Origin: Nitrospirota bacterium
GTDB taxonomy: Bacteria; Nitrospirota; Thermodesulfovibrionia; SZUA-242
NCBI GenBank assembly: GCA_003235715.1
Contig: QJVM01000054.1
Location: 1-37,698 of the forward strand
Length of the DNA: 37,698 bases
Reading direction: 5' to 3'
The notes under the pieces are model-generated. The model was given only the letters and a program-made list of their open reading frames with translations, was not told the DNA's origin and ran no database searches. Positions 11,119 to 32,518 of this stretch are shown here, piece by piece. Every line of letters starts with the position of its first letter. Position 1 is the stretch's first letter. The position numbers were made by a program, and so were the translations under genes.

Positions 11119-13146
11119 ATGAGAAACAAAGTATCTCCCACCATCTGGTTCGCCTTCGGCCTCTTGATCTTCTTGTGGCCTGCCGCATTCGCCATCGCAC
11201 TTGAATTCCAGCCCTCTGAATACAACTTTGGGGAAGCGGAAGTTGGCACGTCGAGTACGACGATCGTTTCTCTGTCATCCAGTGCGGATACGGTGTGGGA
11301 GGGCGTCGATAGCGCCTTATTTACTCCGCTCAGCAGTCCCGACTTTTCGGTCTATCCCCCCGTCCCCCTGCCCCTGAGGTTTGACGCAGCGCACATCGAG
11401 GCTCTCACGAAGAGAGGCGATGTGATCTATTTCAAGGCCAATGACAACTCAGGACCCGAACTTTGGAGGAGCGACGGAACCCCGGAGGGGACCTTCATGG
11501 TCAAGGACATCCGTCCCAACGATTACTTCTCTTCGGTCTACGGGAATTGGGGGCATATTGAAGAAATAACCAATGTCGATGGAACCCTCTTCTTTGTCGC
11601 AAATGACTCCATTTTCGGCCCCGAACTGTGGAAGAGCGACGGGACGGAAGCCGGAACCATGTTGGTGAAGGACACCTATCCAGGGGATTATTCGAATACG
11701 CGCCCCTCTGGGCTGACAGCCTCCAACGGTTCCCTCTATTTCATAGGCGATAGCGGGACCCTCGGCACGGAACTATGGAGGAGCAACGGGACAGAAGAGG
11801 AAACCTTCATTATCCTCGACATCACGGAACCGGAGGGTGCTCGGGTGTCCAGCCTGAACGATGTAGGCGGTACACTCTATTTTCAAGCCTCTCGCCTCGG
11901 GCAGAGGGAACTCTGGAGGAGCAATGGCACCGCGGAAGGGACCGAAAGGGTTACGGATCAGCAATTTTATTCGATTTACACTACAGGGATGGTTCAGGCG
12001 AACGGAACCATTTTCTTCACGGCTACCGATTCCCTCTACGAATCGGGCCAGGAGCTATGGAAAACGGATGCGGACGGGACTGTCATGGTAAAGGACATCT
12101 TCCCGGGAACATCAGAATACGGCAGTGCAAACCAATCCCGCCCCTTTGGACTTATCCCTTTTAGCAATGCGGTCTTCTTTCACGCCGACGACGGCATGAA
12201 CGGCCGTGAACTATGGACGAGCGACGGAACCGAACCGGGAACGTACCTGTTTAAAGACATCAACGCCGGCGCAGGCAACGGCGCCTGCGGCTGGATCCCG
12301 TTTGCCGTTGTCATGAATGAGGCCCTGTATTTTTCTGGCAATGACGGGACCAACGGATGTGAGCTTTGGAAGAGCGACGGCACCCCAGAAGGTACGTTCA
12401 TGTTAAAGGAGATCGCTCCGGGACCGGACTTCTCAACCCCCCACAACTTTCATGTGGCCGACGGAATTCTCTACTTCCTCGCCACAGACCCCGATCACGG
12501 TATAGAACTCTGGAGGTCTGACGGCAACAGCGACGGAACCTTCATGGTGAAAGATATTCGACCGGGTTCCCGGGACTCTCGCATCGGACCCCTGTCCAGT
12601 ATCGGTGGCACCCTATATTTCACGGCCGACGACGGCGTCAACGGCCAGGAGCTGTGGAGAAGTAACGGGACCGAAGCGACCACGACCATGGTCACGGAAA
12701 TCCTTCCGGGTTTCGGGCCTTCACTCAACCTAGAGGTCACCTACACACCATCCTCCCTCGGACCGGCTGAGGCCCATCTCGTTCTCGCGGGCACGTCCTT
12801 TCTATTCCTGCATTTATTCGGATCAGGGGTCACGGTGGAACCGCCCCCGGGGGAACAGATCTCGGAAATACTGGAATTTTTTCAAGCTTCGGTTGAGACA
12901 GGAACTTTGTCAGGGGACGGGCCCGGCAATTCCGGGGAAGGACGCCTGAATGCCCTGACAAATATGATCGAGGCGGCAGACGATCTTATTGAAGGGGGGC
13001 TTCTTTCTGAGGCCTGCGGGCAACTGCAGGACGTCTATAACCGCTGTGACGGGTTGTCACCTCCGCCGGATTTTGTCTCGGGAGTTGCAGCTGTAGAATT
13101 GGCCAATATGATCGGAACTCTCATGAATAACCTGGGTTGCGAGTAA
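11119..13146 (+). CDS. Exported ELWxxDGT-repeat protein
   Basis: Signal peptide, then many copies of (A/F)NDGxxGxELWRSDGTxEGTxMVKDIxPG. Confidence 0.88.
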   Translation: MRNKVSPTIWFAFGLLIFLWPAAFAIALEFQPSEYNFGEAEVGTSSTTIVSLSSSADTVWEGVDSALFTPLSSPDFSVYPPVPLPLRFDAAHIEALTKRGDVIYFKANDNSGPELWRSDGTPEGTFMVKDIRPNDYFSSVYGNWGHIEEITNVDGTLFFVANDSIFGPELWKSDGTEAGTMLVKDTYPGDYSNTRPSGLTASNGSLYFIGDSGTLGTELWRSNGTEEETFIILDITEPEGARVSSLNDVGGTLYFQASRLGQRELWRSNGTAEGTERVTDQQFYSIYTTGMVQANGTIFFTATDSLYESGQELWKTDADGTVMVKDIFPGTSEYGSANQSRPFGLIPFSNAVFFHADDGMNGRELWTSDGTEPGTYLFKDINAGAGNGACGWIPFAVVMNEALYFSGNDGTNGCELWKSDGTPEGTFMLKEIAPGPDFSTPHNFHVADGILYFLATDPDHGIELWRSDGNSDGTFMVKDIRPGSRDSRIGPLSSIGGTLYFTADDGVNGQELWRSNGTEATTTMVTEILPGFGPSLNLEVTYTPSSLGPAEAHLVLAGTSFLFLHLFGSGVTVEPPPGEQISEILEFFQASVETGTLSGDGPGNSGEGRLNALTNMIEAADDLIEGGLLSEACGQLQDVYNRCDGLSPPPDFVSGVAAVELANMIGTLMNNLGCE

Positions 13147-16323: not shown

Positions 16324-17028
16324 ATGAAAATAATGACATTTACCGTGTTCATCCTTACCGGTTTGATTTTTCCGCTTGTGGCCAATGGCGCAAATTACAG
16401 TGTTTCGTGGCAAGGAACACAGAGGGAGTTTCATCACGGGGACGTTTCAGGCAAGGTCCCGCTCCAACAGTTTTCTGGTACAAGTAATCTGTATGCCGTA
16501 GGGCCGGTTGCCGGGTTGGATGGCGAGATTACCGTAATTGACAGCAACTTTTACATTTCACGTATCAGACACGGCGAAATCAAAACAGATAGCGATCTAA
16601 CCACTGTCGCGGGTTTCCTCGTTTGGTCGGAAGCCCCTGAATGGAAACCACCCATAACGCTCGGTGAAAGTGCGGATACTCATCCACAGCTCGAGAACCT
16701 GATAGAGACCTTGGCGGTAAAAGAAGGGATCGATACGAGCAAACCCTTCCCTTTTATCGTCGAGGGGATGGTCCAATCGGTCGCTTACCATATACTTGCG
16801 CCAAGAACATCTGATTCCGCGGGGTCCGACCCAAGGCATAGTTCAAAGAAAGTGTCGTTGACCAATGCGCCCGTAAAGATCCTCGGCTTTTTTTCGAAGG
16901 AGCACGGAGGCGTTTTCACACATATGGGAAGTAGAGCGCATCTTCATGTCCTCGAGAATAATGGTCACACAGGTCATGTCGAAAAGATATCCGTCGGTCC
17001 AGAAGTCTTGGTCTTGTTTCCCCAATAA
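16324..17028 (+). CDS. Exported alpha-acetolactate decarboxylase-like protein
   Basis: Signal peptide; VAGLDGEITVIDSNFYISR and the GSRAHLHVLENNGHTGHVEKI metal-site-like region resemble BudA/ALDC. Confidence 0.6.
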   Translation: MKIMTFTVFILTGLIFPLVANGANYSVSWQGTQREFHHGDVSGKVPLQQFSGTSNLYAVGPVAGLDGEITVIDSNFYISRIRHGEIKTDSDLTTVAGFLVWSEAPEWKPPITLGESADTHPQLENLIETLAVKEGIDTSKPFPFIVEGMVQSVAYHILAPRTSDSAGSDPRHSSKKVSLTNAPVKILGFFSKEHGGVFTHMGSRAHLHVLENNGHTGHVEKISVGPEVLVLFPQ

Positions 17029-17377: not shown

Positions 17378-17944
17378 CTACATTGGTTGTGTGATCGTGA
17401 AAGCCCCTCGAATGTCACCGGCCTCGAAGCCACGCGCCTTGTCCTCCGGGTATGATTCTCTAAGCTGGGTTTCCGCATCCGGGTCCAGGTCCTTACCATG
17501 ACATTTGGTACATATATCGATGGTCGGAATGGCCTTCATATAGCGAAAGCGTTTTGTTCCATCTTCCGTAACCTCCTCGGCGTGCTCCATCTTCGTGATA
17601 TCCTCACCAGCAAGTTTTCGCTTCTCGAACAATAATAGAGTTTCCCGTTCCCAGGCATCAGGTGCATTGTTGGGGTTTCGCAGTTTCAAAGAGGTCCGCC
17701 CGACTTTCCAACCGTGCTTCTCTGATTGCTGCCGGGCAATCTCGGGTGCCGTTACCTTGCACACTTTGATCGCATTCACCGGACCACCTGACTTCATGGC
17801 CTCCTGGAGTGCCCCCTTCAGCGTCTGCATGAAATCCATGACGACGGCACGGCTTTTTTCAACACGAGAGTCCTGAGTTGTTGCCATTGACATACTTGCC
17901 AGACCGATTACCAGGAATATGGTCAGCGTTGGTCTCACCTTCAT
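17378..17944 (-). CDS. DUF3365/Tll0287-like c-type haem protein
   Basis: Signal peptide, KVCKVTAPEIA, IDICTKCHGKDL (CxxCH), 'LRESYPEDKARGFEAGDIRGAFTI'. Confidence 0.8.
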   Translation of the reverse strand: MKVRPTLTIFLVIGLASMSMATTQDSRVEKSRAVVMDFMQTLKGALQEAMKSGGPVNAIKVCKVTAPEIARQQSEKHGWKVGRTSLKLRNPNNAPDAWERETLLLFEKRKLAGEDITKMEHAEEVTEDGTKRFRYMKAIPTIDICTKCHGKDLDPDAETQLRESYPEDKARGFEAGDIRGAFTITQPM

Positions 17945-18837: not shown

Positions 18838-20190
18838 TCATCTCAGACCGTACTTGTTCATCTTTCTCCAGAGCGTCGTCCGGGCAATGCCGAGTTCGCT
18901 GCACACGGCCCCAAGGTTCCGGGAATGCTTCTCGATGCTCTTTCGTATCAATTCACCCTCCCAGTCCTCGAGGGTGGAAGGAGTCGCTGAGTCCGTTGCG
19001 GTCCTGCCCAGATCGAACATCCTGCTCGTAAGCGTCATGGAGATATCGTCAGGCTCCACCCGATCTCCCGAGGCCATGGCGGCCGCGCTCGAAACCGAGT
19101 TCAGAAGCTCCCGAACATTCCCGGGGAAATCGTAATCCAGGAGAAGGGCCATCGCCTCCGGTGCGAGTTCCAGGCCCGGCCGTTTGTATTCTTGGCGTAC
19201 TTTCTCAAGCGCGTACTGTACCAGCAGAGGAATATCCTCCCGATGTTTACGGAGGGGCGGTATCTCGATATGGGATACCCGGATTCGGTAGAAAAGGTCC
19301 TCCCGGAAGGCTCCTTGCGATATGGCCTGGACGAGATCCGTGTTTGTAGCGGTCATGATTCGCACATTGAATGGGATGGCCTTGTTGCTTCCCACGGGGC
19401 GAACGCTCTGGTCCTGGAGACAGTCCAGAAGCTTCGCCTGCATGCTGACGGGCATACTGCCGATCTCATCCAGCAGAAGGGTTCCCCCGCTGGCTTCAAG
19501 AAACAGGCCCTTGCGTTCCAGCAGAGCCCCCGTAAAGGCTCCTTTGACATGGCCGAAGAGCTCACTCTCCAGAAGATTCTCTGGAACACCCGCACAGTTG
19601 ATGGACACGAAGGGTCCCCCGCTGCGTGAACCCGATTTGTGTATGGTGCGGGCAACAAGGTTTTTTCCCGTACCTGTTTCCCCTGTAATAAGCACCGGCA
19701 AATCCACGCGGGCCAGCCGGGCCATGACGTCCCTCAGCGTTTCCATGGCCCGACTGCTTCCAATGAGCGGGGAACCGCCAAGATCCACCTTATCGATCCG
19801 GTCGATCGTTCTTCGTAATTCGATATGATTCAGCGTTTTCTGAACCCGGTGCAGGATCTCCTCGTTCTTGAAGGGCTTGGATATGTAGTCAAACGCCCCC
19901 ATCCGCATGGCAATGACCGCGGATTCGACCGTACCGTAACCGGTCATCACGATCACTTCCGTCATGGGTAACCGTTCCCTCACAAAGAAGAGGACGTCCA
20001 GACCCGTACCCGGGGACATTTTCAAATCCGTGATAACGATATCGAATGCGTTCTCATTAAGGTATCGAATCGCATCCTGCCCGTTCTCGGCCTCGACCAC
20101 GTGATAGCCTTCCTTGTGTAGCAGTATGGCAAGGCTCCGTCGCATGCCGTCCTGATCGTCGATGACCAGGATTTTCGCCTTACCCGTCAT
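18838..20190 (-). CDS. Sigma54-dependent response regulator (NtrC family)
   Basis: Receiver domain (VIDDQDGMRRSL), GETGTGKNLVARTIH Walker A, GAFTGA loop, C-terminal Fis-type HTH. Confidence 0.96.
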   Translation of the reverse strand: MTGKAKILVIDDQDGMRRSLAILLHKEGYHVVEAENGQDAIRYLNENAFDIVITDLKMSPGTGLDVLFFVRERLPMTEVIVMTGYGTVESAVIAMRMGAFDYISKPFKNEEILHRVQKTLNHIELRRTIDRIDKVDLGGSPLIGSSRAMETLRDVMARLARVDLPVLITGETGTGKNLVARTIHKSGSRSGGPFVSINCAGVPENLLESELFGHVKGAFTGALLERKGLFLEASGGTLLLDEIGSMPVSMQAKLLDCLQDQSVRPVGSNKAIPFNVRIMTATNTDLVQAISQGAFREDLFYRIRVSHIEIPPLRKHREDIPLLVQYALEKVRQEYKRPGLELAPEAMALLLDYDFPGNVRELLNSVSSAAAMASGDRVEPDDISMTLTSRMFDLGRTATDSATPSTLEDWEGELIRKSIEKHSRNLGAVCSELGIARTTLWRKMNKYGLR

Positions 20191-20197
20191 AATCTGC

Positions 20198-21922
20198 TCA
20201 CGCAGCCGTTCCGGATTGCGGCTCCGGTTCGCGCCACTCCTTTTCGTAAGTTTCGGTGTGGACCGGAAAACTCAGCTGAACCTCCGTCCCGGCACCGGGC
20301 GAACTTCCTACCGAGAAATACCCATGATGGGCCTTCATCATATTGTGAACAATATTTAACCCCAGTCCCATCCCCCGGTCTTTTGTGGAAAAGAAGGGTT
20401 CAAAGATCTGGGGCAGGAGTTCTTTTGCGATTCCATTGCCCGTATCCGTAATCCGGATATTCATTTCCGCGTCCCCGGGCTTGTACTCTGTCGTGATATG
20501 GATGGTTCCTCCGCCCGTAATGGCCTCGAGGGCGTTCTTCAGTACATTGAGCAGTATCTGTTTCACCCGCCCGGCGTCCATATAGAAATCGGGAACCCCG
20601 GGGGCGAGTTCCTCACGGATACGAATCCGGGCGCCAACCCCTGGGTTCATCGAAAACACCGACAGCGTCTCCCGTATAACGGCATTGATATTCGCCAATT
20701 CCAGTCGGAGCCCGACCGGTTTCGAGTAGCAGATGAAATCCTCCACAAGCTTGTCCAGCCGGTCTATTTCATTATCCACTATGGTCGCCAGTTCACTATT
20801 CTCCTCGTCAAGATGGCTGTACCGACGAAGAACGCCGATAGAATTGCTGATCGCCCCGAGAGGATTTCGTATTTCATGAGCGAGTGAGGCCGCCATCTTC
20901 CCTATGGATGCGAGTTTTTCAGATTCCTTCAGGTATTTCTGGGTTTCTTTCAGGCGGTCGAAGGCCGTGGTAAGCTGACGATTCTTCTCCTCGATTTCCG
21001 CTAACAGGCCACGCAACTCCCTTCTGGAGGTATACAGCTTCTGGGTGGTTTTGGTGAAACCATAAGCCAGGCCAACAAGCAGGCCGGAGAAGACGACCAC
21101 CTTGATCACATGCCAGTACCACCAGATGGGGTCCCAAAGTCTGGAAAAAGCAAAAAGGATCTCACTCTCGGAAAAAAGAAGCGACGATGCCGAAAAGGCA
21201 AGAAATACAACGTCATTCGTGGCAAAGAAGCGGTTCAGAAAATACAGGCCGGAAACGATAAAAAGGATTCCGGAAACAATATTGAGCCCGTAAATGAACT
21301 CGCTGAACGTACCCTTGGCATCCAGTACGGACGTTCCTAATGGCATTTCGAACACAAGGACGTTCGGAAGAAAAGGGCTCAGACGATTCGATAAATAGGC
21401 AAACACGAGAATCGCGGCAACGCCCAACAAGGCGTGCATGCGCCGGGACCACACCGAGGCGCCTGGAACCTTCTCGTCACTTTGAACGAGGATGGCCGCA
21501 AAGAAAAAGGCCGCACCAAAAAAAGCGCTCCACGAGTGAAACCAGACAAAGGTGTTGTGATCGTAATCCGCGAGAGCGTGAAATATATCCAGAATTCCCA
21601 TGTACAGGAAGGCCAGAACAATGCAGAGACCGCTGAGCTTCCCGGATCCGGAATATTCAGAATATAGGATGAAGGAAATAATGATGGAAATCAGCCCGCA
21701 GAAGATTTCCAGGTTCGCATGCTTGGGGACATCAATGAAAAAGTGCCCTTCGTCAAAGAACAGATTATCGAGCAGTGGAACGGCGGCAACCCCAACGAGG
21801 ATGACAGCGGTAACGGCCACAAGTCCCCGCCTCGCTCTTTCCACGCTCCGAGGATCCGGCCCTTCCAGCCTGAAACTGAGGTACTTGAGCAGAGGGCGCG
21901 GGTGGATGAGTTGCCCGAACAT
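20198..21922 (-). CDS. Membrane sensor histidine kinase with MASE3-like sensor domain
   Basis: Multi-TM region with 'LYMGILDIFHALADY', H-box SLAHEIRNPLGAISNS, DTGNGIAKE, GMGLGLNIVHNMM. Confidence 0.92.
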   Translation of the reverse strand: MFGQLIHPRPLLKYLSFRLEGPDPRSVERARRGLVAVTAVILVGVAAVPLLDNLFFDEGHFFIDVPKHANLEIFCGLISIIISFILYSEYSGSGKLSGLCIVLAFLYMGILDIFHALADYDHNTFVWFHSWSAFFGAAFFFAAILVQSDEKVPGASVWSRRMHALLGVAAILVFAYLSNRLSPFLPNVLVFEMPLGTSVLDAKGTFSEFIYGLNIVSGILFIVSGLYFLNRFFATNDVVFLAFSASSLLFSESEILFAFSRLWDPIWWYWHVIKVVVFSGLLVGLAYGFTKTTQKLYTSRRELRGLLAEIEEKNRQLTTAFDRLKETQKYLKESEKLASIGKMAASLAHEIRNPLGAISNSIGVLRRYSHLDEENSELATIVDNEIDRLDKLVEDFICYSKPVGLRLELANINAVIRETLSVFSMNPGVGARIRIREELAPGVPDFYMDAGRVKQILLNVLKNALEAITGGGTIHITTEYKPGDAEMNIRITDTGNGIAKELLPQIFEPFFSTKDRGMGLGLNIVHNMMKAHHGYFSVGSSPGAGTEVQLSFPVHTETYEKEWREPEPQSGTAA

Positions 21923-22315: not shown

Positions 22316-22981
22316 TCAGTCGTTCCATTTACGGAACGAGGTAATCGGGATGTACACCGGAACCTTATTGTCCTGAAAGTCGTGGACCGCAAGAATTTCC
22401 TCGTCGGTAACATAATAGGGTTTCACGTATACAAAAGTGGATGAGCGCCTCTCAACCACTTCTCCCTCCTTGAACCCGCTTTCAGGAAGGACATACAGAG
22501 AGATGAAGAATTTTATGTGCATAAACCTTTTCAAAAGGTTCCGGTTATAGGGCAGGGCTCGGTCTATGGTCACGACCTTGGATATATCCAGGGGGTTGCC
22601 GTCCACTTTATATACCTGTTCGACGCGAGATACCGGGTCCTCATCAACCGGCACCTCCGTCATGGCCGTCTCTCCTGTCTGGATAAAGGCCTTGACATAG
22701 GGATGGGACACGTAGATAGGCTCGTCTGCCACACTGTCAATCCGTACCGTTGCAATATATTGCTGGCTCGTTTCTATGTCTGGGGCCTCCCGAACGTCCC
22801 TGATTTCCGCTGAAATCCAATAAAACGCCTGTTCCCTCAACCGCTCGAGCTTCGCATCCCGTTCCGCGATCACGGCCTCCTGTTTCGTAGCAACATAGTA
22901 ATCCAGGCCAGCCGCCGCTCCGGCCAGACAGAGGATTCCAAGGCCAGCCTTGATCCACTTCCCCCATCCTTTCTGTTTCAT
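22316..22981 (-). CDS. Membrane-anchored protein of unknown family (paralogue of 24804..25451)
   Basis: N-terminal TM; shares DYYVxxKQxAI, HPxVxxxxQTG, TEVPV, ISLYVLPESxFxExEVxER and DFxDNxVPxxIP with 24804..25451. Confidence 0.8.
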   Translation of the reverse strand: MKQKGWGKWIKAGLGILCLAGAAAGLDYYVATKQEAVIAERDAKLERLREQAFYWISAEIRDVREAPDIETSQQYIATVRIDSVADEPIYVSHPYVKAFIQTGETAMTEVPVDEDPVSRVEQVYKVDGNPLDISKVVTIDRALPYNRNLLKRFMHIKFFISLYVLPESGFKEGEVVERRSSTFVYVKPYYVTDEEILAVHDFQDNKVPVYIPITSFRKWND

Positions 22982-23049: not shown

Positions 23050-23829
23050 CTATTCCCCGAATATCACTTCAGCCTGCGATCTCAGCGCTGTCATCTCGTC
23101 GAATGACGGTCCCAGCAGATCCGAACTTTCCCGACCTGCAAGAAATCTCCTCAATGTCTCGTTATACGCCAGGACAAAACGCTGGTTCAGGTCCTTGAGG
23201 CGCGTGACCTTTTCGTACGGCAAATCCTCCGTGATCTGCCTGCTGTGAATGCGTGTGCCTGCCTCGTTCCACCACGCTTTGGCGCGATAGAGAAAGTCCC
23301 GATTCATATCATATGGCACATCGAGGGTACCGCTGGTATATAACCCGAGTTCAGGCACGGGGATGTCCCTCCCCGGTCCACACCCGGTAGCACTTTCACC
23401 ATTCAGGACGATAACCCGCAGCGAATGCATACTGTGCTCAAGGTCGTCAAACCAGTTTCCTCGCAGGTATAGCATGAGGGCATCGGTTGAAAATTTGTCG
23501 TATTCCGTCTCAAGGAATGTCCTGGCCCGATCGTTCGAAGCCGGGTCTGAATGGTTGCTATCTTTTCCATGCCAGACCGATTGGACTTCCTGCCATCGAA
23601 CAAACGTTTCCTGGAAGAAGCTTCTGAGCGCATGATCCGCGACATAGGGGTCCGTCATATCGTTCGTTGTTCCCTGGGATGCGCGATCAGCGGCAAGGGC
23701 GCATCCGCCGATTAGCAGGGAAACCAAGAGAAGCGCGTCAAGACTGCGTACAATTCCGCGGCGCTCCATAGGGACAATCGGGCCTTCCGCCACCGAAGAG
23801 GCCGAGCCGCGAACTGTGACCATGTTCAT
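23050..23829 (-). CDS. Exported or lipoprotein-like hypothetical protein
   Basis: Hydrophobic LLLVSLLIGGCALAAD segment; no domain recognised; true start uncertain. Confidence 0.6.
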   Translation of the reverse strand: MNMVTVRGSASSVAEGPIVPMERRGIVRSLDALLLVSLLIGGCALAADRASQGTTNDMTDPYVADHALRSFFQETFVRWQEVQSVWHGKDSNHSDPASNDRARTFLETEYDKFSTDALMLYLRGNWFDDLEHSMHSLRVIVLNGESATGCGPGRDIPVPELGLYTSGTLDVPYDMNRDFLYRAKAWWNEAGTRIHSRQITEDLPYEKVTRLKDLNQRFVLAYNETLRRFLAGRESSDLLGPSFDEMTALRSQAEVIFGE

Positions 23830-23842
23830 CGTCTGAGTCCCC

Positions 23843-24331
23843 CTACATCCCTTCCCTCAGAATCCACTGGGCGCTGCCAGGGGAAACCCAGTAGAAACGT
23901 TCCGGGTCCATGGGCAGACTGGCCCCATCGACCGGGTGCGAAAATATTTTCAGATTAACCTCACCATCCATGTTGCGGTACATCCGAGGCAGGTTTTCGG
24001 GAATTCTGACAGTGAACGTCCGAATCGAATTCGGGGGGTCTTGTCCAGCTCCCGCCTCAGGCGTAACCGCTAGGGGGATCCATTGTCCGATCTTCTCGGA
24101 CTGAACGGAGAATTCGTTCTTGAATGACTCCGGGGCCAGATTCATCTCCGTTTCATTCTCGAACATGAGTTCCACCCGGTACGTGTCCTTGCCCATGTAC
24201 TGGACCCGTTCCAGATTAAACCGGATGCCCGGTCGGGCCAGTTCCGCCATACCGGACCAAGCTCTAACAGGGATAAGTGCCAAGAGGACCCATCCCCATA
24301 ACCCACATCGTATGATTCCGATCGCATTCAT
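23843..24331 (-). CDS. Exported hypothetical protein
   Basis: Signal-like N-term from MNAIGIIRCGLWGWVLLALIPVRAWS; no family recognised. Confidence 0.6.
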   Translation of the reverse strand: MNAIGIIRCGLWGWVLLALIPVRAWSGMAELARPGIRFNLERVQYMGKDTYRVELMFENETEMNLAPESFKNEFSVQSEKIGQWIPLAVTPEAGAGQDPPNSIRTFTVRIPENLPRMYRNMDGEVNLKIFSHPVDGASLPMDPERFYWVSPGSAQWILREGM

Positions 24332-24386
24332 CGTGCCCGTCCAATTGAAACTATGGGTACTCCCGGACACCATCCCGCATCCAGGG

Positions 24387-24791
24387 CTACGGCCCCACCT
24401 TCACGTCAACGACCGCGCTATCCTCCTTACCGCCACTGTCCATCCGGATGTGCACCTCCCAGTCGCCCGGCATTGAGAAGTTCAGCCCCTTGACCTGAAA
24501 GTTTCCTTCACCCATTGGGGTGATCTCTGGCATCTCCATGGTAACGTGCTCATGCATGGGCATCCACGGCACGATCTCAATCTTCAAGGACTCGCGACCC
24601 GGCTTACGGGAACCTTGTTCGTGAATCTTTAGCATCAGGTCGTTCATCCCCACGGTCACAGGGTTTTTCGCAAATTCCACTTCCAGTTCATAATGGCCCT
24701 GTTCCGTGGCTATCGGATAGGCCAAGGCTACTGTGCCCGCCCAACCAGATAGAAGAAATACAAAAGACACAACGATGAGCCCATATTTCAT
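24387..24791 (-). CDS. FixH/YtkA-like exported protein with Met/His-rich segment
   Basis: Signal peptide; 'KNPVTVGMNDLMLKI...PWMPMHEHVTMEMPEITPMGEGNFQVKGLNFSMPGDWEVHIRM'. Confidence 0.75.
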   Translation of the reverse strand: MKYGLIVVSFVFLLSGWAGTVALAYPIATEQGHYELEVEFAKNPVTVGMNDLMLKIHEQGSRKPGRESLKIEIVPWMPMHEHVTMEMPEITPMGEGNFQVKGLNFSMPGDWEVHIRMDSGGKEDSAVVDVKVGP

Positions 24792-24803: not shown

Positions 24804-25451
24804 TCAATGGGGCGGCATGGGGATCATTTCAGGAACCTGGTTGTCCGCAAAATCCACCTGTGCAAGAATGTCCGCGTCGGTTATGAAGAATGGTTTCAGA
24901 TAGATATAGACGTCCGTGTACCGCTCAAGCACTTCCTCCTCATTGAATACACTCTCAGGCAGAACGTACAAGGAGATGTGGAAACGGACATGCATATAGC
25001 CATACATGTTGTATTCGGTGTAGGGGATGTCCTCTCCAATGGTCGTCATCATGTGATACAAGTGCTGTCCCGGCTGAAGCTCGTATATCTGCTGGATATT
25101 CTGATCGTCCAGATCCCGGACGGGCACCTCTGTCCAGAACGTGCCCGTCTGCACATAAGTGGTTACCCGGGGATGAGTGGTATAGATCACTTCATCCGAA
25201 ACGTTGTCGACCTTGATTATGGCCTCGTAATCTTCCAGTACGGCGCCGCTGTTGGACGCATCGTGAATGTCCGGAAAGATCATAAAGAAAGCCAGTTCTT
25301 CGAGCTTTTCCTTCTTTTCCTGTACTGCCTTGAGAATGGCCGCCTGTTTATAACCCACGTAGTAGTCCGTCCCCGCGAGAACCGTTGCCACTGCGGCGAG
25401 AACGACCAACATCTTCTTACGCCGGTTCAGAAAGTCCAGTAGCCGTTTCAT
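24804..25451 (-). CDS. Membrane-anchored protein of unknown family (paralogue of 22316..22981)
   Basis: See 22316..22981; single N-terminal TM (KMLVVLAAVATVLAGTDYYVGYKQ). Confidence 0.8.
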   Translation of the reverse strand: MKRLLDFLNRRKKMLVVLAAVATVLAGTDYYVGYKQAAILKAVQEKKEKLEELAFFMIFPDIHDASNSGAVLEDYEAIIKVDNVSDEVIYTTHPRVTTYVQTGTFWTEVPVRDLDDQNIQQIYELQPGQHLYHMMTTIGEDIPYTEYNMYGYMHVRFHISLYVLPESVFNEEEVLERYTDVYIYLKPFFITDADILAQVDFADNQVPEMIPMPPH

Positions 25452-25481: not shown

Positions 25482-26213
25482 TCAATTTGAAGGACACGGG
25501 CAGCAGTCTCCGTCCTCCACCTTTACCAAAGTACCGTCCTGCAGATGGAGGACACGGTCCGCAATCCCGGCCATTTCCAGATCATGCGTTGAAAAGACAA
25601 TGGTCAGTCCTTTTTCCCGGGTCAGGTTACGGAATGTTTGAATCACAAAAAGCCTGTTCTCGCGGTCAAGATTGGCGGTGGGTTCGTCGGCCAGGATAAC
25701 GAGAGGCCGGGTAATGAGGGCACGGGCAATCGCAACGCGCTGAATCTCACCCCCGCTTAACTGGTTCGGCATATGGTACAGGCGGTGTCCGAGACCCAGG
25801 GAGCGTATAATTTCGATCCCCTCTTCCTTCAGTTTGCCGTTACGGTCTGCGGGTTTGAAGAAGTTAAACGGCAGCAGCGTATTTTCCAGAACATTCAGCA
25901 TCCTGAGTGGCCGCGCGTCCTGAAAGATATAGCTGAACTTCTCGCGTCGGAACCTCACGAGGCGTTCCTCGGATAGCGTATCGATTCGCTCGCCCTGGAG
26001 ACATACATCGCCATGAGTTGGCCGGTCGAGCGATCCAATAATGTTGAGCAGCGTGGTCTTTCCCGATCCGCTTGGGCCGACCAGTGCCACGAGTTCGCCC
26101 GCGTTCATGGCCAGGGAAATGTTTTCGATCGCCGTAACCTCCCCTGAGGCCAACCGGAACACCTTGGCGACGTCCCGGAGTTCCAGCAGTGGTTTCTCCA
26201 TTGTTGCCTGCAT
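25482..26213 (-). CDS. ABC transporter ATP-binding protein (LolD/MacB-type)
   Basis: GPSGSGKTTLLNIIGSLDRPT, LSGGEIQRVAIARAL, LADEPTANLD. Start at 26213 chosen from GGGAGG SD. Confidence 0.92.
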   Translation of the reverse strand: MQATMEKPLLELRDVAKVFRLASGEVTAIENISLAMNAGELVALVGPSGSGKTTLLNIIGSLDRPTHGDVCLQGERIDTLSEERLVRFRREKFSYIFQDARPLRMLNVLENTLLPFNFFKPADRNGKLKEEGIEIIRSLGLGHRLYHMPNQLSGGEIQRVAIARALITRPLVILADEPTANLDRENRLFVIQTFRNLTREKGLTIVFSTHDLEMAGIADRVLHLQDGTLVKVEDGDCCPCPSN

Positions 26214-26215
26214 GC

Positions 26216-27409
26216 CTATACCTCCCATTGAGAGCGGAAACTTTCCGTAATCTTGATACCCGAAAGCCTGTATGTCGGGTAATAGCTCGCCGACAGGCTG
26301 CATACCATGCCGATGGTCACAGCCCCGAGAAGATATGCGGGGTTCAATATGACGGAGGAACCCAGCTTAAGCAGAAACCGATCGAGTATCCAGGTACATC
26401 CCATCCCGACAAAGAACCCGAATGTGCCGGCCACAAATCCCACGAGAAGATATTCATAGATGAAGATGAGAAGGAGTTGTCTTCGTGAAGCGCCAACCGA
26501 TTTCAGAAGCCCGATTTCCCGAACCCGTGAGTAGAGCGCTGTGGTTACGATATTGAATATCGAAAAAACGCTGACAATGATCGTAGCCAACACAATGGCA
26601 AGCAGGAAGCGGAACGTCTTCTTCAACAACACGAACTTCAGGGTTGTAAACTGCTGCGGGGAAATTGCCTTGATATTGGGGATGCTCGTATTGAGCATCC
26701 CAATCACGCTCTTCATAAGGTCCGGATTGCGGTCGAGCCCCACGCTTTGAACATTGACAAGAGATACACGCCCGCCCAGGCTGAAAAGTTCCTGGGCCGT
26801 CTCCAGATCGACAAAGAGCATATGATCCTCGGATGAATTGTAGTTTTCCAACACCCCGGCGATACGAATCGACCGTCCGGCCACGGAGACCAGATCATCC
26901 GGTGACAGGCCGTTCACACGTGCGAAGGTACCACCCGCGACCGCCTCGTTACGGCCCGGATCGGCCCAGCGACCCACGGAGAGACTCCATGACGGGCGCG
27001 CGGTCCGTTCCGCGTCGAGGTTCAATCCCGCAACAAGCGCGGGGCTCGTCCGGCCATCCTTTACGATGTCTGTCGTTTCGTACAACCGCGGAGAGATCAC
27101 GAGTTTCTGTTCCTCCCCTTCCACGCGCGCAAGAATGGTTTGCTGAATCGCTTCAACCAGTTTCCCGTCGAGGGTTTCTCCGAGCACCACACCAACCTGG
27201 TCAATCCGTTCCTGTTTCACATTCTTAGGCTGTATGGACAGGGTAAAGCCAAACTTGGATGCCAGATTGGAAAGTGTGGAATCTGCATTGTCTAGCGTGA
27301 GCATGATCGTGCTCAAAATGGCAACCGGAATCAGCACGGCAATAAACAGGTACGCACTTCGACCCTGTCGCCGGGTTAGGTCTTTCAGGGCAATACGCAA
27401 AAGTTCCAT
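26216..27409 (-). CDS. ABC transporter permease (MacB/FtsX-type)
   Basis: N-terminal TM, periplasmic domain, C-terminal FtsX 'YSRVREIGLLKSVGASRRQLLLIFIYEYLLVGFVAG'. Confidence 0.9.
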   Translation of the reverse strand: MELLRIALKDLTRRQGRSAYLFIAVLIPVAILSTIMLTLDNADSTLSNLASKFGFTLSIQPKNVKQERIDQVGVVLGETLDGKLVEAIQQTILARVEGEEQKLVISPRLYETTDIVKDGRTSPALVAGLNLDAERTARPSWSLSVGRWADPGRNEAVAGGTFARVNGLSPDDLVSVAGRSIRIAGVLENYNSSEDHMLFVDLETAQELFSLGGRVSLVNVQSVGLDRNPDLMKSVIGMLNTSIPNIKAISPQQFTTLKFVLLKKTFRFLLAIVLATIIVSVFSIFNIVTTALYSRVREIGLLKSVGASRRQLLLIFIYEYLLVGFVAGTFGFFVGMGCTWILDRFLLKLGSSVILNPAYLLGAVTIGMVCSLSASYYPTYRLSGIKITESFRSQWEV

Positions 27410-27411
27410 AT

Positions 27412-28674
27412 TCAGGTCTCCCACTGAGTCCGGAAGGTTTCGGTGATCTTGATTCGCGTCAGTTTAAGCGCCGGAACAAATACCGCCAGTACGCTGCACA
27501 GTATTCCGAGGGCAAGGGCACGCCAGAGCAGATGGGAATCCACCCGTAGAATGGCTCCGATATCCAGAAATGCATTCAGTACAATGGCCATTCCGATACC
27601 GACAAGATACCCCACGGCCCCGGAGGTGAACCCGAGGGCAAAATGTTCGTACAGAAATATCCGGAGCACCTGGCACCGTGAGGCTCCGATGGCTTTGAGG
27701 AGGCCGATTTCCCGTGTGCGGGCGTAGAGAGAGCCGGTCACTACGTTGAAGATGGAAAGAACGGCGACAAAGATCGTGGCCGTGACGACTGCGAGCAGGA
27801 AGTTATATAGCATATTGAAGAATTCAAACTGCACACCCGCAATGTCCAGCTGGGATGTGGCCGTTATGCCGGTGATCGTCTTGTTCAGTTCCACCATAGC
27901 GTCTCCCACCGGGCAGTTCGGGCACATGGCCCGCACGCTTAGCAGGGAAACGTAGCCGGCCTTGTCAAACATTCGTTGAGCCGCCCTGATCGGAATAAAC
28001 AGCATGTAGTCGTCCGCTGAATTGGTTTCCTGCAGGACACCCATCACTTTGAAGGGGGTCCCGTTTACAGTCACCGTGTCGCCTGCGCCAATACCCCTCG
28101 CCTGCGACAGTACACCACCGATGAAGGCCTCATTTTCGCCGGCCTGGCGGATGCGTGTCGCGTCCGTCGGCCATTCTCCACTGGCCAGGTCCCACCAGAA
28201 ACGCACAAAATACTCCTTGTAGAAATCAACCCCGGTCACAATGACCGGGTTTCCATCCAGACTGGTCTTTCCATACAATCGGGGCGCCCAGGTTGGCGGT
28301 TCAATGTTGATCTCGCCGATTCCAGGGCGGGCCACAAGACCCCCCTTCCGCTCCCAGCCCGCCTTGATGGCCTTGTCGTAGCTTCGTTCGATTTCCGGAA
28401 TAATGTGTTCGGGTATGTATTTGCCAAACACGACTTCCGATGTCGTCAGGGTGTCCGATGTGATGTCATCCGCACTCCGTTCCGTAATGACCGGGCGAAC
28501 CGTCAACGTGTGTCCCGTTTTGGAAATCACCTCAAGAATCGTTGTGTTGGCAGAGGTGCTCACAATCGACAGTGACGTGAGCAAGGCCACGGCGATCACG
28601 ATGGCAAGCACCAGCATCAGGTTTTTCCGGGGTCGCCGGACCAGGTCCAGCAGGGACAGCACAAGAATTTTCAT
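27412..28674 (-). CDS. ABC transporter permease (MacB/FtsX-type)
   Basis: 'YARTREIGLLKAIGASRCQVLRIFLYEHFALGFTSGAVGYLVGIG'; same architecture and same C-terminal ending (TxIKITExFRxQWE) as its neighbour. Confidence 0.9.
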   Translation of the reverse strand: MKILVLSLLDLVRRPRKNLMLVLAIVIAVALLTSLSIVSTSANTTILEVISKTGHTLTVRPVITERSADDITSDTLTTSEVVFGKYIPEHIIPEIERSYDKAIKAGWERKGGLVARPGIGEINIEPPTWAPRLYGKTSLDGNPVIVTGVDFYKEYFVRFWWDLASGEWPTDATRIRQAGENEAFIGGVLSQARGIGAGDTVTVNGTPFKVMGVLQETNSADDYMLFIPIRAAQRMFDKAGYVSLLSVRAMCPNCPVGDAMVELNKTITGITATSQLDIAGVQFEFFNMLYNFLLAVVTATIFVAVLSIFNVVTGSLYARTREIGLLKAIGASRCQVLRIFLYEHFALGFTSGAVGYLVGIGMAIVLNAFLDIGAILRVDSHLLWRALALGILCSVLAVFVPALKLTRIKITETFRTQWET

Positions 28675-29402
28675 CCGGTACACACCTCCCCCATCAGGGC
28701 CTGGACCGGGTCCTGTACGTCGGTCCGCACCTGTCCGTCCTTCATCACCACCACGGTATCGGCCTTGTCGATCCAGGACAGGCTGTGGCTGACCACGATG
28801 ATGGTCTTCCGGTACTCCGTGTTGATATGGCGGAATATATCGATCACTTCCTGTTCCGTCCGAATATCCAGTTCGCCGGTGGGTTCATCCGCCAGGAGAA
28901 TCTCCGGGTCGTTCACTAGAGCCCGCGCAATGGCCACGCGACGCTGTTCTCCCCCCGAAAGTTCCGAGGGATACGCGTTCACCTTATGGCTCATTTCCAG
29001 ATCAGAAAGCAGCGAGAGTGCCTTGTCCCTGAGGGCGGTTACGTCAATCGTCCCGTTCCGCCGGAAGATCACGGGCATCACGATGTTATTCAGCACGTCA
29101 AGAGTCGGAAGAAGACTGAACGACTGGAACACAAAACCGATCGTCCGGTTACGGAACGCCGACAATTCCCGATCCTTGAGTTTCCAGATATCCACGCCAT
29201 CGGTAACGACCGTTCCCTCTGTGGGACGCGTAAGCCCGCCAATCGTGCTGACCAGCGTCGTCTTCCCGGAGCCGGAATGCCCCACGAAGACCACGAAGCC
29301 TGAACGTTCGATGTCCAGGTCAATCCCTCGCAACGCATCCACCCGCTGGTTGGACAGCGTATAAATCTTTCTCAAGCCGCGTATCTTTATATAGGCATCC
29401 AT
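28671..29402 (-). CDS. ABC transporter ATP-binding protein (LolD/MacB-type)
   Basis: GHSGSGKTTLVSTIGGL, LSGGEQRRVAIARAL, LADEPTGELD. Confidence 0.92.
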   Translation of the reverse strand: MDAYIKIRGLRKIYTLSNQRVDALRGIDLDIERSGFVVFVGHSGSGKTTLVSTIGGLTRPTEGTVVTDGVDIWKLKDRELSAFRNRTIGFVFQSFSLLPTLDVLNNIVMPVIFRRNGTIDVTALRDKALSLLSDLEMSHKVNAYPSELSGGEQRRVAIARALVNDPEILLADEPTGELDIRTEQEVIDIFRHINTEYRKTIIVVSHSLSWIDKADTVVVMKDGQVRTDVQDPVQALMGEVCTG

Positions 29403-29403
29403 A

Positions 29404-30618
29404 TCACAGTCCCTGTTTCATGGTTTCGTGAGGATCAATGCGAACCGCAATCAGTGCCGGGTAGGTCGCGCCGCTGATGCCCATCACCAGAGCCATCAAT
29501 ACGGCTCCCCCGGCCATCACCCCGATAAAATCAAGCGGGGGAAGCATGAACGGGATGTTCAGAAGTTTCAGGTAAAACACAATGGAACGCTGAAACAGCT
29601 TCAGCAGCACCCCTCCCAGAAACATGCCTACCACTCCGCTGATCAGGCTGATCAGGGTGGATTCGTAAAGTATCAGCTTGAAGATGGACGTCTTCGTGGC
29701 GCCAATGGCCCGGATGATCCCGATTTCCCGTTTCCGTTCATTGACCACGGCCGAGAATATGGCGTTGATCATCAGAATGTTCGAGAGGATCAGGATCCCA
29801 ATCAGGGCAACTACTCCTGAAAAGACCGCCACAGTGGTCTGCCGCGCCGAGGTCTGGATATTGCCTGTCGTGACTACCTTAAGTTCCGGGTTATCGCGGA
29901 GAACCGAAAAGGTAATGAAGGGAATCTTGGCGCCCACGGACAGCTGAACGAGCCCACCGGAGATCTTGCCGTCAATTTCCTTCAGAGGTTGAACCGAGGG
30001 GTCCGTCTGGGAAATGCGGGACATTTCGTAGGCCTTGTTGACGTGAAAGAAGATGGCATTATCGTAGAGGCCGATACCCGTACGCTCGAGTCGGCCCCAT
30101 ACCTTCAGGGGCACGCCGTAAAACTTTACAGAGTCTCCTGTTTCCCACTGGGTCATGGCACCCACAACAGCCCCATCAGCAGGAAACGGTTCACTGGACT
30201 TCTTTTCTACCCATGGCATCACTGTGAAGTCGTCTTCCGGGTTGAATCCGATCAGGAAGGAGTTTCCCAGCACGCAACATTCTCCGGTCGCACTGGTCAT
30301 GAAGATCTGGCCGGACACCCGCTTGACCCCCTTCAACCGGCGGATCCGGTCAATCACACCTGCGTCCATATAGAATGCGGACGGTTCTCCGGTAAGCAGG
30401 GCGGATTTCAGGTTTACAAGTGATTCCTTGGGAATGACGAGAAGGTCGGCTCCAAGCTTCGATAACCCCTTGTCCAGGCTGTAGTGAATACCGGTAATCA
30501 GTATGGAGCTGGCAAAGAGCGCCCCGATAACAATGCTGACGCCGATCAGGATGATATAGAAGCGAAGCTGTTTTACCTGCAGATTCTGGTATGCCAGCTT
30601 GAACAGCGAAATGACCAT
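29404..30618 (-). CDS. ABC transporter permease (MacB/FtsX-type)
   Basis: 'NERKREIGIIRAIGATKTSIFKLILYESTLISLISGVVGMFLGG'; GGAGG SD before ATG. Confidence 0.9.
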   Translation of the reverse strand: MVISLFKLAYQNLQVKQLRFYIILIGVSIVIGALFASSILITGIHYSLDKGLSKLGADLLVIPKESLVNLKSALLTGEPSAFYMDAGVIDRIRRLKGVKRVSGQIFMTSATGECCVLGNSFLIGFNPEDDFTVMPWVEKKSSEPFPADGAVVGAMTQWETGDSVKFYGVPLKVWGRLERTGIGLYDNAIFFHVNKAYEMSRISQTDPSVQPLKEIDGKISGGLVQLSVGAKIPFITFSVLRDNPELKVVTTGNIQTSARQTTVAVFSGVVALIGILILSNILMINAIFSAVVNERKREIGIIRAIGATKTSIFKLILYESTLISLISGVVGMFLGGVLLKLFQRSIVFYLKLLNIPFMLPPLDFIGVMAGGAVLMALVMGISGATYPALIAVRIDPHETMKQGL

Positions 30619-30730: not shown

Positions 30731-30764
30731 TCCTTTTATGGAGGGAAGTCCCTCCATAAAAGGA
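30731..30764 (-). terminator. Strong hairpin between the propeller gene and the ABC genes (terminator/attenuator)
   Basis: Perfect 16-bp arms TCCTTTTATGGAGGGA / TCCCTCCATAAAAGGA, followed on minus by ATCTTTTT. Confidence 0.8.
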
Positions 30765-30800: not shown

Positions 30801-32345
30801 CTACGTCGTCGGACATCGTGATATGGCCAGTTCCTTCTTGTTCCTGGGCACAATAACCGAATCGTGATGACCCAAGGCACTTGGGAGATAGCCGTAAAAC
30901 TTGTCGTCGGCAACCCGGACCACATAGGTGCCGGTCTTGGTCTTTTGGTAGCCGCTGTAAACGCCGAACAGCCACTTTCCGTCGCCAGTTACTGCAATGG
31001 TATGCGTATCCGGTCCGATGACATGCTCATTGACGATCTTCCAGCTCTTGGTATCCACCACCGCTATGCTGTTATCTGTCGGGGGCGGCCACCACAGCGT
31101 CACGTACATCTTGCTTTCATCCGGTGTAAACGCCATATGGAACGGGTTGGGGTATGCGCCCCTCCACTTGGGGTCGCCCACGCCGGCGATCCGACGCCAG
31201 TTGGTGGGGTCAGACTGGTCGCTGCAGTCAAACACGGCCATCATATTCTCACGGCTATTGTTCATAAGAACGAAGTAATTGCCGCTGGGGCTATACCCCG
31301 CCTGATGGGCCGGAGTGGGAACGTTCTTGAACTTGGCCTGCCATTCGCCGTCACCCACCTTGGTCAGCGGCACCTGGAAGCCCTGCGCCCGGTGCTTGTC
31401 GGATCCGACACAAATGGCCCTGGGTTCCCACGTCCTCGTATCAAACACGACGCCGGCACCCAGCAGTCGGAGCGCAGCAATAGCGTAGTTCTCGTGACCC
31501 GGATCCCAACCCAGAGAATCCAGCGCCACTAGGTTTTTCAACCGGGGACCCGGTACTTTCCCCTGCTCGGCGAAGAGTTCTCCACCCGGCACGAGTTCCC
31601 AGTCAATCTTGGTCCCCTTGGTCCCTTTGAGATCAAAGGGTGCCTTCAGGTGCCGGATCGTCAACGTACCCCCATCGACCCACGCCCTGGAAAGCTCCAT
31701 GTTGTTGGGTTCCCAGTCGAACAGTACGGCCTTTTCCACACTGGACGGGTTGGTTCCCTTTCCGCGTCGGAAAATGCCCATGATGTCCTTCTGACCGTCA
31801 CAGACGCAGAACCGCTCATTGTCCGGGGCAACGGTGACATGCACGCCAAGACCGAGTCCTGTGGTTTCCGCCACATCCTCCTGGATCTCCATCTTGCTGC
31901 CGTCATACTTCACGCGCCAGATGTTGAATCCCTCGGCCGGTTGCTTGACGGGCGTCGTAACGCCATAGATGTAGAGGTTCTTTCCTCCCTGGGAATCCAC
32001 GATGTATTCGAATTCCTTGTAGGGGTCCGGTGATGCGAATGCCGCAAGGTGGTGCGGGATGGGTGTGGCGTTACCGCCGGATATGCCGAAATTGAGCCAT
32101 GCCAGGCATTCGCCCGTGGACATATCGTAGGCGCCAACCACGCCGGCAAATTTTCCGGGACATAGGTGAATGTACTTCCCAAACTGCTTGTACACATCCT
32201 GCAATGTCGGTTCACCAAACAATGCTGCCTCTGCCTCACGCCCCAGTTTTACCGGGGATCTGAGTCCAAGCCCGGACCCGACACCCGCCAACGCCGCGGC
32301 ACCGGCGGCACCCGCCTTTATGAGGCCTCTTCGGGTTACTTTCAT
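30801..32345 (-). CDS. Tat-exported NosZ-like beta-propeller protein without CuA domain
   Basis: MKVTRRGLIKAGAAGAAALAG Tat signal, AGGAGG SD; propeller-like repeats with inner-strand His motifs PIPHHLAAF, GVHVTVAP, PGHENYAI, PAHQAGYSPSG, PFHMAFTPDES, DTHTIAVTGDGKWL, GHHDSVIVPRNK. Confidence 0.75.
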   Translation of the reverse strand: MKVTRRGLIKAGAAGAAALAGVGSGLGLRSPVKLGREAEAALFGEPTLQDVYKQFGKYIHLCPGKFAGVVGAYDMSTGECLAWLNFGISGGNATPIPHHLAAFASPDPYKEFEYIVDSQGGKNLYIYGVTTPVKQPAEGFNIWRVKYDGSKMEIQEDVAETTGLGLGVHVTVAPDNERFCVCDGQKDIMGIFRRGKGTNPSSVEKAVLFDWEPNNMELSRAWVDGGTLTIRHLKAPFDLKGTKGTKIDWELVPGGELFAEQGKVPGPRLKNLVALDSLGWDPGHENYAIAALRLLGAGVVFDTRTWEPRAICVGSDKHRAQGFQVPLTKVGDGEWQAKFKNVPTPAHQAGYSPSGNYFVLMNNSRENMMAVFDCSDQSDPTNWRRIAGVGDPKWRGAYPNPFHMAFTPDESKMYVTLWWPPPTDNSIAVVDTKSWKIVNEHVIGPDTHTIAVTGDGKWLFGVYSGYQKTKTGTYVVRVADDKFYGYLPSALGHHDSVIVPRNKKELAISRCPTT

Positions 32346-32502: not shown

Positions 32503-32518
32503 AGCAAGTTCTGGGCCC
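32503..32518 (-). promoter_or_regulatory. Candidate sigma54 (-24/-12) promoter of the NosZ-like cluster
   Basis: Minus strand GGGCCCAGAACTTGCT against consensus TGGCACGNNNNTTGCW; GG/GC spacing is correct, with three mismatches at other -24 positions; ~160 nt upstream of the start codon. Confidence 0.5.

Follow-up and report, generated by a model that had tools for sequence, protein, structure and literature searches.

Which enzyme is encoded by a long reading frame at one end of a cluster of transporter and regulator genes in Nitrospirota DNA? The stretch analysed, hereafter the window, is 37,698 nt long, and the initial annotation proposed for the product a Tat-exported, divergent N2O-reductase-like (NosZ-like) or otherwise copper-dependent enzyme lacking the CuA domain. 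NosZ is a His-lined seven-bladed copper propeller that is encoded alongside an ABC transporter module, NosDFY. The reading frame proved to be real. Its coding sequence runs on the minus strand from 32345 to 30804 with the stop codon at 30803–30801, and specifies 514 aa starting with MKVTRRGLIKAG; the plus-strand frame across 30801–32345 is interrupted by stops. The leader is of Tat type (TRRGLIK, residues 4–10), with Tat profiles matching below their cut-offs, and the histidines listed in the annotation (His98/99, 169, 284, 347, 403, 448 and 493/494) are all where it placed them. The chain stops with the propeller and carries no C-terminal CuA cupredoxin by sequence, domain scan or structural model, as had been claimed. 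Its end coincides exactly with that of solved thiocyanate dehydrogenases (TcDHs). Pfam and NCBIfam returned weak propeller-repeat and Tat-signal matches alone; since no family there covers the product, it appeared unknown. We refer to the gene as tcdh and list the features of the locus in the table.

Table. Features of the tcdh locus, with positions in the window.
Feature	Position	Strand	Basis
Perfect palindrome, 19-nt arms, 1 nt between, TTTTTCAGAGTGAAACAAG/CTTGTTTCACTCTGAAAAA	32580..32618		Putative sigma-54 response-regulator site
-24/-12-like (sigma-54) element GGGCCCAGAACTTGCT	32503..32518	minus	Orthologues have near-consensus elements at a matching distance; own copy marginal alone
tcdh, TcDH homologue	30801..32345	minus	PDB sequence match; 13/13 active-site residues; model TM
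Hairpin and U-rich tail in the tcdh-ftsX1 interval	30731..30764	minus	15 pairs, then ATCTTTTT
ftsX1, FtsX/MacB-type permease	29404..30618	minus	Pfam FtsX 1.9e–18; adjoins tcdh in 11/11 Nitrospirota loci
ABC ATPase 1, LolD-like	28671..29402	minus	Profile matches; locus comparison
ftsX2, FtsX/MacB-type permease	27412..28683	minus	Profile match; locus comparison
ftsX3, third FtsX permease, confined to the window's clade	26216..27424	minus	
ABC ATPase 2, LolD-like	25482..26303	minus	Profile matches; locus comparison
215-aa membrane-anchored protein, YMH and C-terminal MPPH motifs	24804..25451	minus	Relative adjoins Methylocella homologue
YtkA-like exported protein, WMxxHxH	24387..24791	minus	Pfam YtkA 1.3e–9; motif in 7/7 aligned homologues
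176-aa exported protein, no assigned family, conserved C-terminal REGM	23843..24373	minus	
259-aa protein, no assigned family, poorly conserved	23050..23829	minus	
221-aa membrane-anchored protein, similar to the 215-aa protein	22316..22981	minus	
Membrane histidine kinase	20198..21922	minus	HATPase_c, HisKA; near tcdh in most relatives
Sigma-54 response regulator: receiver, AAA+ with GAFTGA, HTH_8	18838..20190	minus	Near tcdh in most relatives

In a PDB sequence search, residues 48–514 matched the Pelomicrobium TcDH 8q9x (E = 4e–167) and residues 11–514 the Thioalkalivibrio paradoxus TcDH 5f75 (E = 4.5e–156), with the first non-TcDH match at E = 3.3e–7. The window protein is ~51–55% identical to these TcDHs. 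The published TcDH active site consists of K103, H135, H136, Q156, H206, E288, D314, H381, H437, H482, H528, D529 and R544 (PMC6504805), and all 13 residues, a list that also takes in cavity-forming ones, are identical in the window protein (in the same order K65, H98, H99, Q119, H169, E250, D276, H347, H403, H448, H494, D495 and R510). Y164 of TcDH, by way of which electrons are proposed to reach cytochrome c552 (PMC9456337), corresponds to Y127. An AlphaFold model built from 13 homologues (mean pLDDT 82.9, pTM 0.84) has the seven-bladed propeller fold of the TcDH type and aligns to TcDH structures with TM 0.94–0.96 (normalised by target, mostly ~1.9 Å). Taking sequence and model together, the tcdh product is a full-length TcDH relative, and the family assignment is clear.

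The confident best match thus lies in a propeller family other than NosZ, and the N2O-reductase identity was not borne out. We found no NosZ in the PDB sequence search at E up to 10 and no match to NosZ families in Pfam or NCBIfam. The comparison with NosZ structures suggested at the outset gave no close fold match: N2O reductases are remote propellers relative to the model (TM at most ~0.47, ~12% identity, versus 0.94–0.96 for TcDH). A divergent N2O reductase without CuA would agree with the shared general fold class, with the similar order of His motifs and with the presence of N2O reductases among the remote fold matches, but given these scores it is the least probable reading that we weighed and hardly tenable. 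Moreover, the neighbouring genes are of MacB/Lol type, and neither a NosD nor a NosL domain turned up among the proteins scanned. In the lactonase-type NosZ-like proteins described from aquifer Nitrospirota the cupredoxin domain is retained, and one of these proteins is encoded with nosDFLYX (PMC11033732). A lactonase-type NosZ was rejected on the same grounds as NosZ proper, there being no sequence match and a fold similarity far weaker than that to TcDH. The ordered His motifs were nevertheless a genuine sign of a copper propeller, only not of NosZ, and the description as a copper-dependent periplasmic propeller with inner His was right, with copper dependence most likely. The predicted need for a separate redox partner also survives, but with the opposite role: TcDH passes electrons to cytochrome c, so that the partner would be an electron acceptor rather than a donor.

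All but one of the highlighted histidines are conserved in most or all of the homologues. H98, H99, H169, H347, H403 and H494 are invariant in 14/14 homologues, H493 is kept in 13 of the 14 and H448 in 12. H284, which had been counted as a metal-site His, is replaced by another residue or a gap in relatives, and hence is not a ligand position. Two distant homologues have Gln at the position of TcDH H482 (L030 3591-5117 and the Methylocella homologue, L032 12001-13380). Both characterised enzymes have been crystallised as mutants with this very substitution (H482Q and H447Q); the natural Gln variants possibly have an altered copper site.

We compared the locus across Nitrospirota. Homologues of tcdh at E ≤ 1e–60 occur in 13 of 396 genomes, the window's own included, in a patchy distribution over several families; the nearest named loci belong to Thermodesulfovibrionales and other Nitrospirota MAGs. 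The order tcdh-FtsX1-ATPase 1 is kept in the window and 10 other genomes (one contig ends inside FtsX1), and the remaining cluster is kept as well in those Nitrospirota loci where the contig is long enough. Tcdh, FtsX1, ATPase 1 and the sigma-54 system are constant across loci while the other parts vary. Members of the window's clade (71–77% identity) have three FtsX permeases; those of a sister clade (52–57% identity) have two, as in Thioalkalivibrio. The sister clade groups with the Pelomicrobium and Thioalkalivibrio enzymes with moderate support (85/89), and the window's clade stands apart. Outside the phylum, a plasmid of Methylocella tundrae found in a plasmid search encodes a 43% homologue, and behind it come genes for an FtsX permease, an ATPase and a protein related to the 215-aa one. 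The leaders of the sister-clade TcDHs L026, L027, L028 and L029, read by eye, are Sec-like and have no twin arginines. The published case for cytoplasmic copper loading of TcDH rests on Tat export (PMC6504805). The Sec/Tat split among sister enzymes gives a handle on two questions, the place of copper-centre loading and the task of the ABC transporters; Sec-type enzymes, which would cross the membrane unfolded, would be in keeping with copper insertion outside the cytoplasm.

The strong hairpin behind tcdh had been read as a terminator. It is present, but further operon genes on that strand follow it, which makes it an intra-operon element and not the end of the transcription unit. A strong hairpin occupies the tcdh-ftsX1 interval in all 11 loci compared, with differing sequences. 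The Thioalkalivibrio operon is induced by thiocyanate, tcdh most strongly and more than the ABC genes (PMC5744179); by analogy, the hairpin may explain such a difference.

Upstream of tcdh, the palindrome precedes the -24/-12-like element by 100 bp, start to start. By chance one would expect 0.03 occurrences of its core, TGAAAC-N7-GTTTCA, in the window; the whole genome contains 2 copies. The core TGAAAC...GTTTCA is common to five orthologous loci, where it lies 94–96 bp (4/5) or 117 bp (1/5) upstream of a near-consensus -24/-12 element; the window's own copy of that element is marginal when taken alone (p ~0.05). The operon's own response regulator may bind the palindrome as its putative site, and on circumstantial evidence the operon is probably turned on by the kinase/regulator pair, acting at the palindrome and a sigma-54 promoter. 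We also considered a wider palindrome regulon and rejected it: the sole other genomic copy of the core sits inside a long coding frame (by eye UDP-sugar dehydrogenase-like) and is therefore taken as chance.

Some genes near the cluster deserve mention in their own right. Downstream of the regulator, an exported single-CxxCH Tll0287-like protein (17378-17944, minus) is a possible electron acceptor, and a similar CxxCH protein adjoins aa3 oxidase genes of the host (L041 1444-2187). Farther on are an exported protein that weakly resembles alpha-acetolactate decarboxylase, scoring below the cut-off (16324-17028, plus), and a 675-aa exported protein of repeated ELWxSDGTxxGT motifs (11119-13146, plus).

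By analogy with the characterised enzymes we infer the substrate, copper content and electron acceptor of the tcdh product; the reaction, judged from homology, is most likely the conversion of thiocyanate to cyanate and sulfur. The inner His together with Lys65, Gln119, Glu250, Asp276, Asp495 and Arg510 would form a trinuclear copper site in the seven-bladed propeller, where SCN- + H2O would yield OCN- + S(0) + 2H+ + 2e- in the periplasm. A c-type cytochrome would then take up the electrons and hand them on to an oxidase. Together with the YtkA-like protein and the two anchored proteins, the ABC modules of FtsX/LolD type probably form a dedicated helper set, which would build the copper site in the periplasm. 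We favour a role in copper-site assembly, as somewhat more probable than handling of the sulfur product, because of the strict linkage to tcdh and the metal-ligand-like motifs that are kept (the YtkA-like protein has WMxxHxH, the anchored proteins have YMH, and the 215-aa type also has a C-terminal MPPH).

The host genome (95.8% complete) contains dsrA, next to which lies a second dsr-type match. A dsrD-like gene (L040 9959-10111, G000:C130; 23.7 bits versus a cut-off of 24.2) follows closely downstream, adjoined by a cobyrinate-synthase gene (dsrN-type), and DsrE had no match in the genome. Since dsrD is found without DsrE, the Dsr set appears to be of the reductive type. The host also carries aprA, a bifunctional sat/APS-kinase gene and an aa3 cytochrome c oxidase. 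Sulfate-reduction-type and oxygen-respiration genes are thus found together in one genome.

Overall, we consider a periplasmic thiocyanate dehydrogenase in a conserved operon the best explanation of the sequence and model data, and a likely one. The aa3 oxidase counts in its favour, as it could receive electrons via cytochrome c. Against it, cyanase was not found in the host genome, no flavocytochrome or CopCD partner was identified beside tcdh (copCD, tatA and fccAB were not recognised among the window neighbour genes scanned), and the dsrD-like gene points to a pathway of the sulfate-reducer type, not to a sulfur oxidiser. Thiocyanate-oxidising Thioalkalivibrio is also said to lack or suppress cyanase (PMC5744179).

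The separate branching of the window's clade, at ~51–57% identity to the characterised enzymes, means that the substrate could have shifted. A TcDH-family copper oxidoreductase acting on another small sulfur or pseudohalide compound would suit this position in the tree, the differing redox lifestyle of the host (dsrA, dsrD-like, aprA and sat) and the lack of a cyanase match, yet it would have to retain 13/13 active-site residues of enzymes with known activity and an operon plan equal to that of Thioalkalivibrio, and we regard it as unlikely. The company of a two-component system and exporter-like ABC genes might also suggest a non-enzymatic propeller that binds or senses copper or thiocyanate. 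We judge this very improbable, as the non-His active-site residues (Lys, Gln, Glu, Asp and Arg) are conserved too, and the homologous Thioalkalivibrio gene is the one most strongly induced by thiocyanate (PMC5744179).

If the thiocyanate dehydrogenase reading is right, the presence of a complete TcDH operon in the Thermodesulfovibrio class would mean that thiocyanate oxidation also occurs in bacteria carrying genes of the sulfate-reduction type. In the literature found, TcDH is described from proteobacterial sulfur oxidisers; our search of mainly open-access papers found no description from Nitrospirota. It is tempting to propose, tentatively and with more doubt than confidence, that subsurface dsr/apr/sat Nitrospirota oxidise thiocyanate by means of a trinuclear copper enzyme, with the MacB/Lol ABC, YtkA-like and anchored proteins building the copper centre. 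If true, there would be a second way, unrelated to NosDFY, in which bacteria put together a multinuclear copper site. The TcDH family and the operon type are of an already known kind, to which the window adds another member. New are the near-unique palindrome ~100 bp upstream of the -24/-12-like element and common to orthologues, a TcDH host with dsrA, dsrD-like, aprA, sat and aa3 oxidase genes, the Sec-type sister TcDHs and the natural Gln variants at one active-site His.

With NosZ/NosDFY the locus shares the general plan of a copper propeller and an ABC module; it differs in having no sequence match, no CuA cupredoxin and other active-site residues, and its transporter is MacB/Lol-type, not NosFY-type. 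The TcDH loci of Thiohalobacter and Guyparkeria have the identical active-site set and a sigma-54 activator nearby but Cus-type copper genes in place of the FtsX/LolD module (PMC6504805). The enzyme of Pelomicrobium methylotrophicum (8q9x, 8z75) is ~53–55% identical across the mature chain, shares all active-site residues and matches the window model in fold (TM 0.95–0.96), although it comes from another phylum and clade. The TcDH of Thioalkalivibrio paradoxus/thiocyanoxidans (5f75) is ~51% identical, with 13/13 active-site residues and a Tat leader. Its operon comprises tcdh, two permease and two ATPase genes, hypotheticals and a sigma-54 two-component pair (PMC5328954), a plan that the window repeats (PMC5328954, PMC5744179); copper transport was considered as the role of the ABC genes and left undecided by the authors (PMC5328954, PMC5744179). 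The window adds a third FtsX, the YtkA-like protein and more anchored or exported proteins, and its host, with a dsrD-like gene, is not a soda-lake sulfur oxidiser. In terms of gene content, the window cluster is an operon of the Thioalkalivibrio kind plus extra parts.
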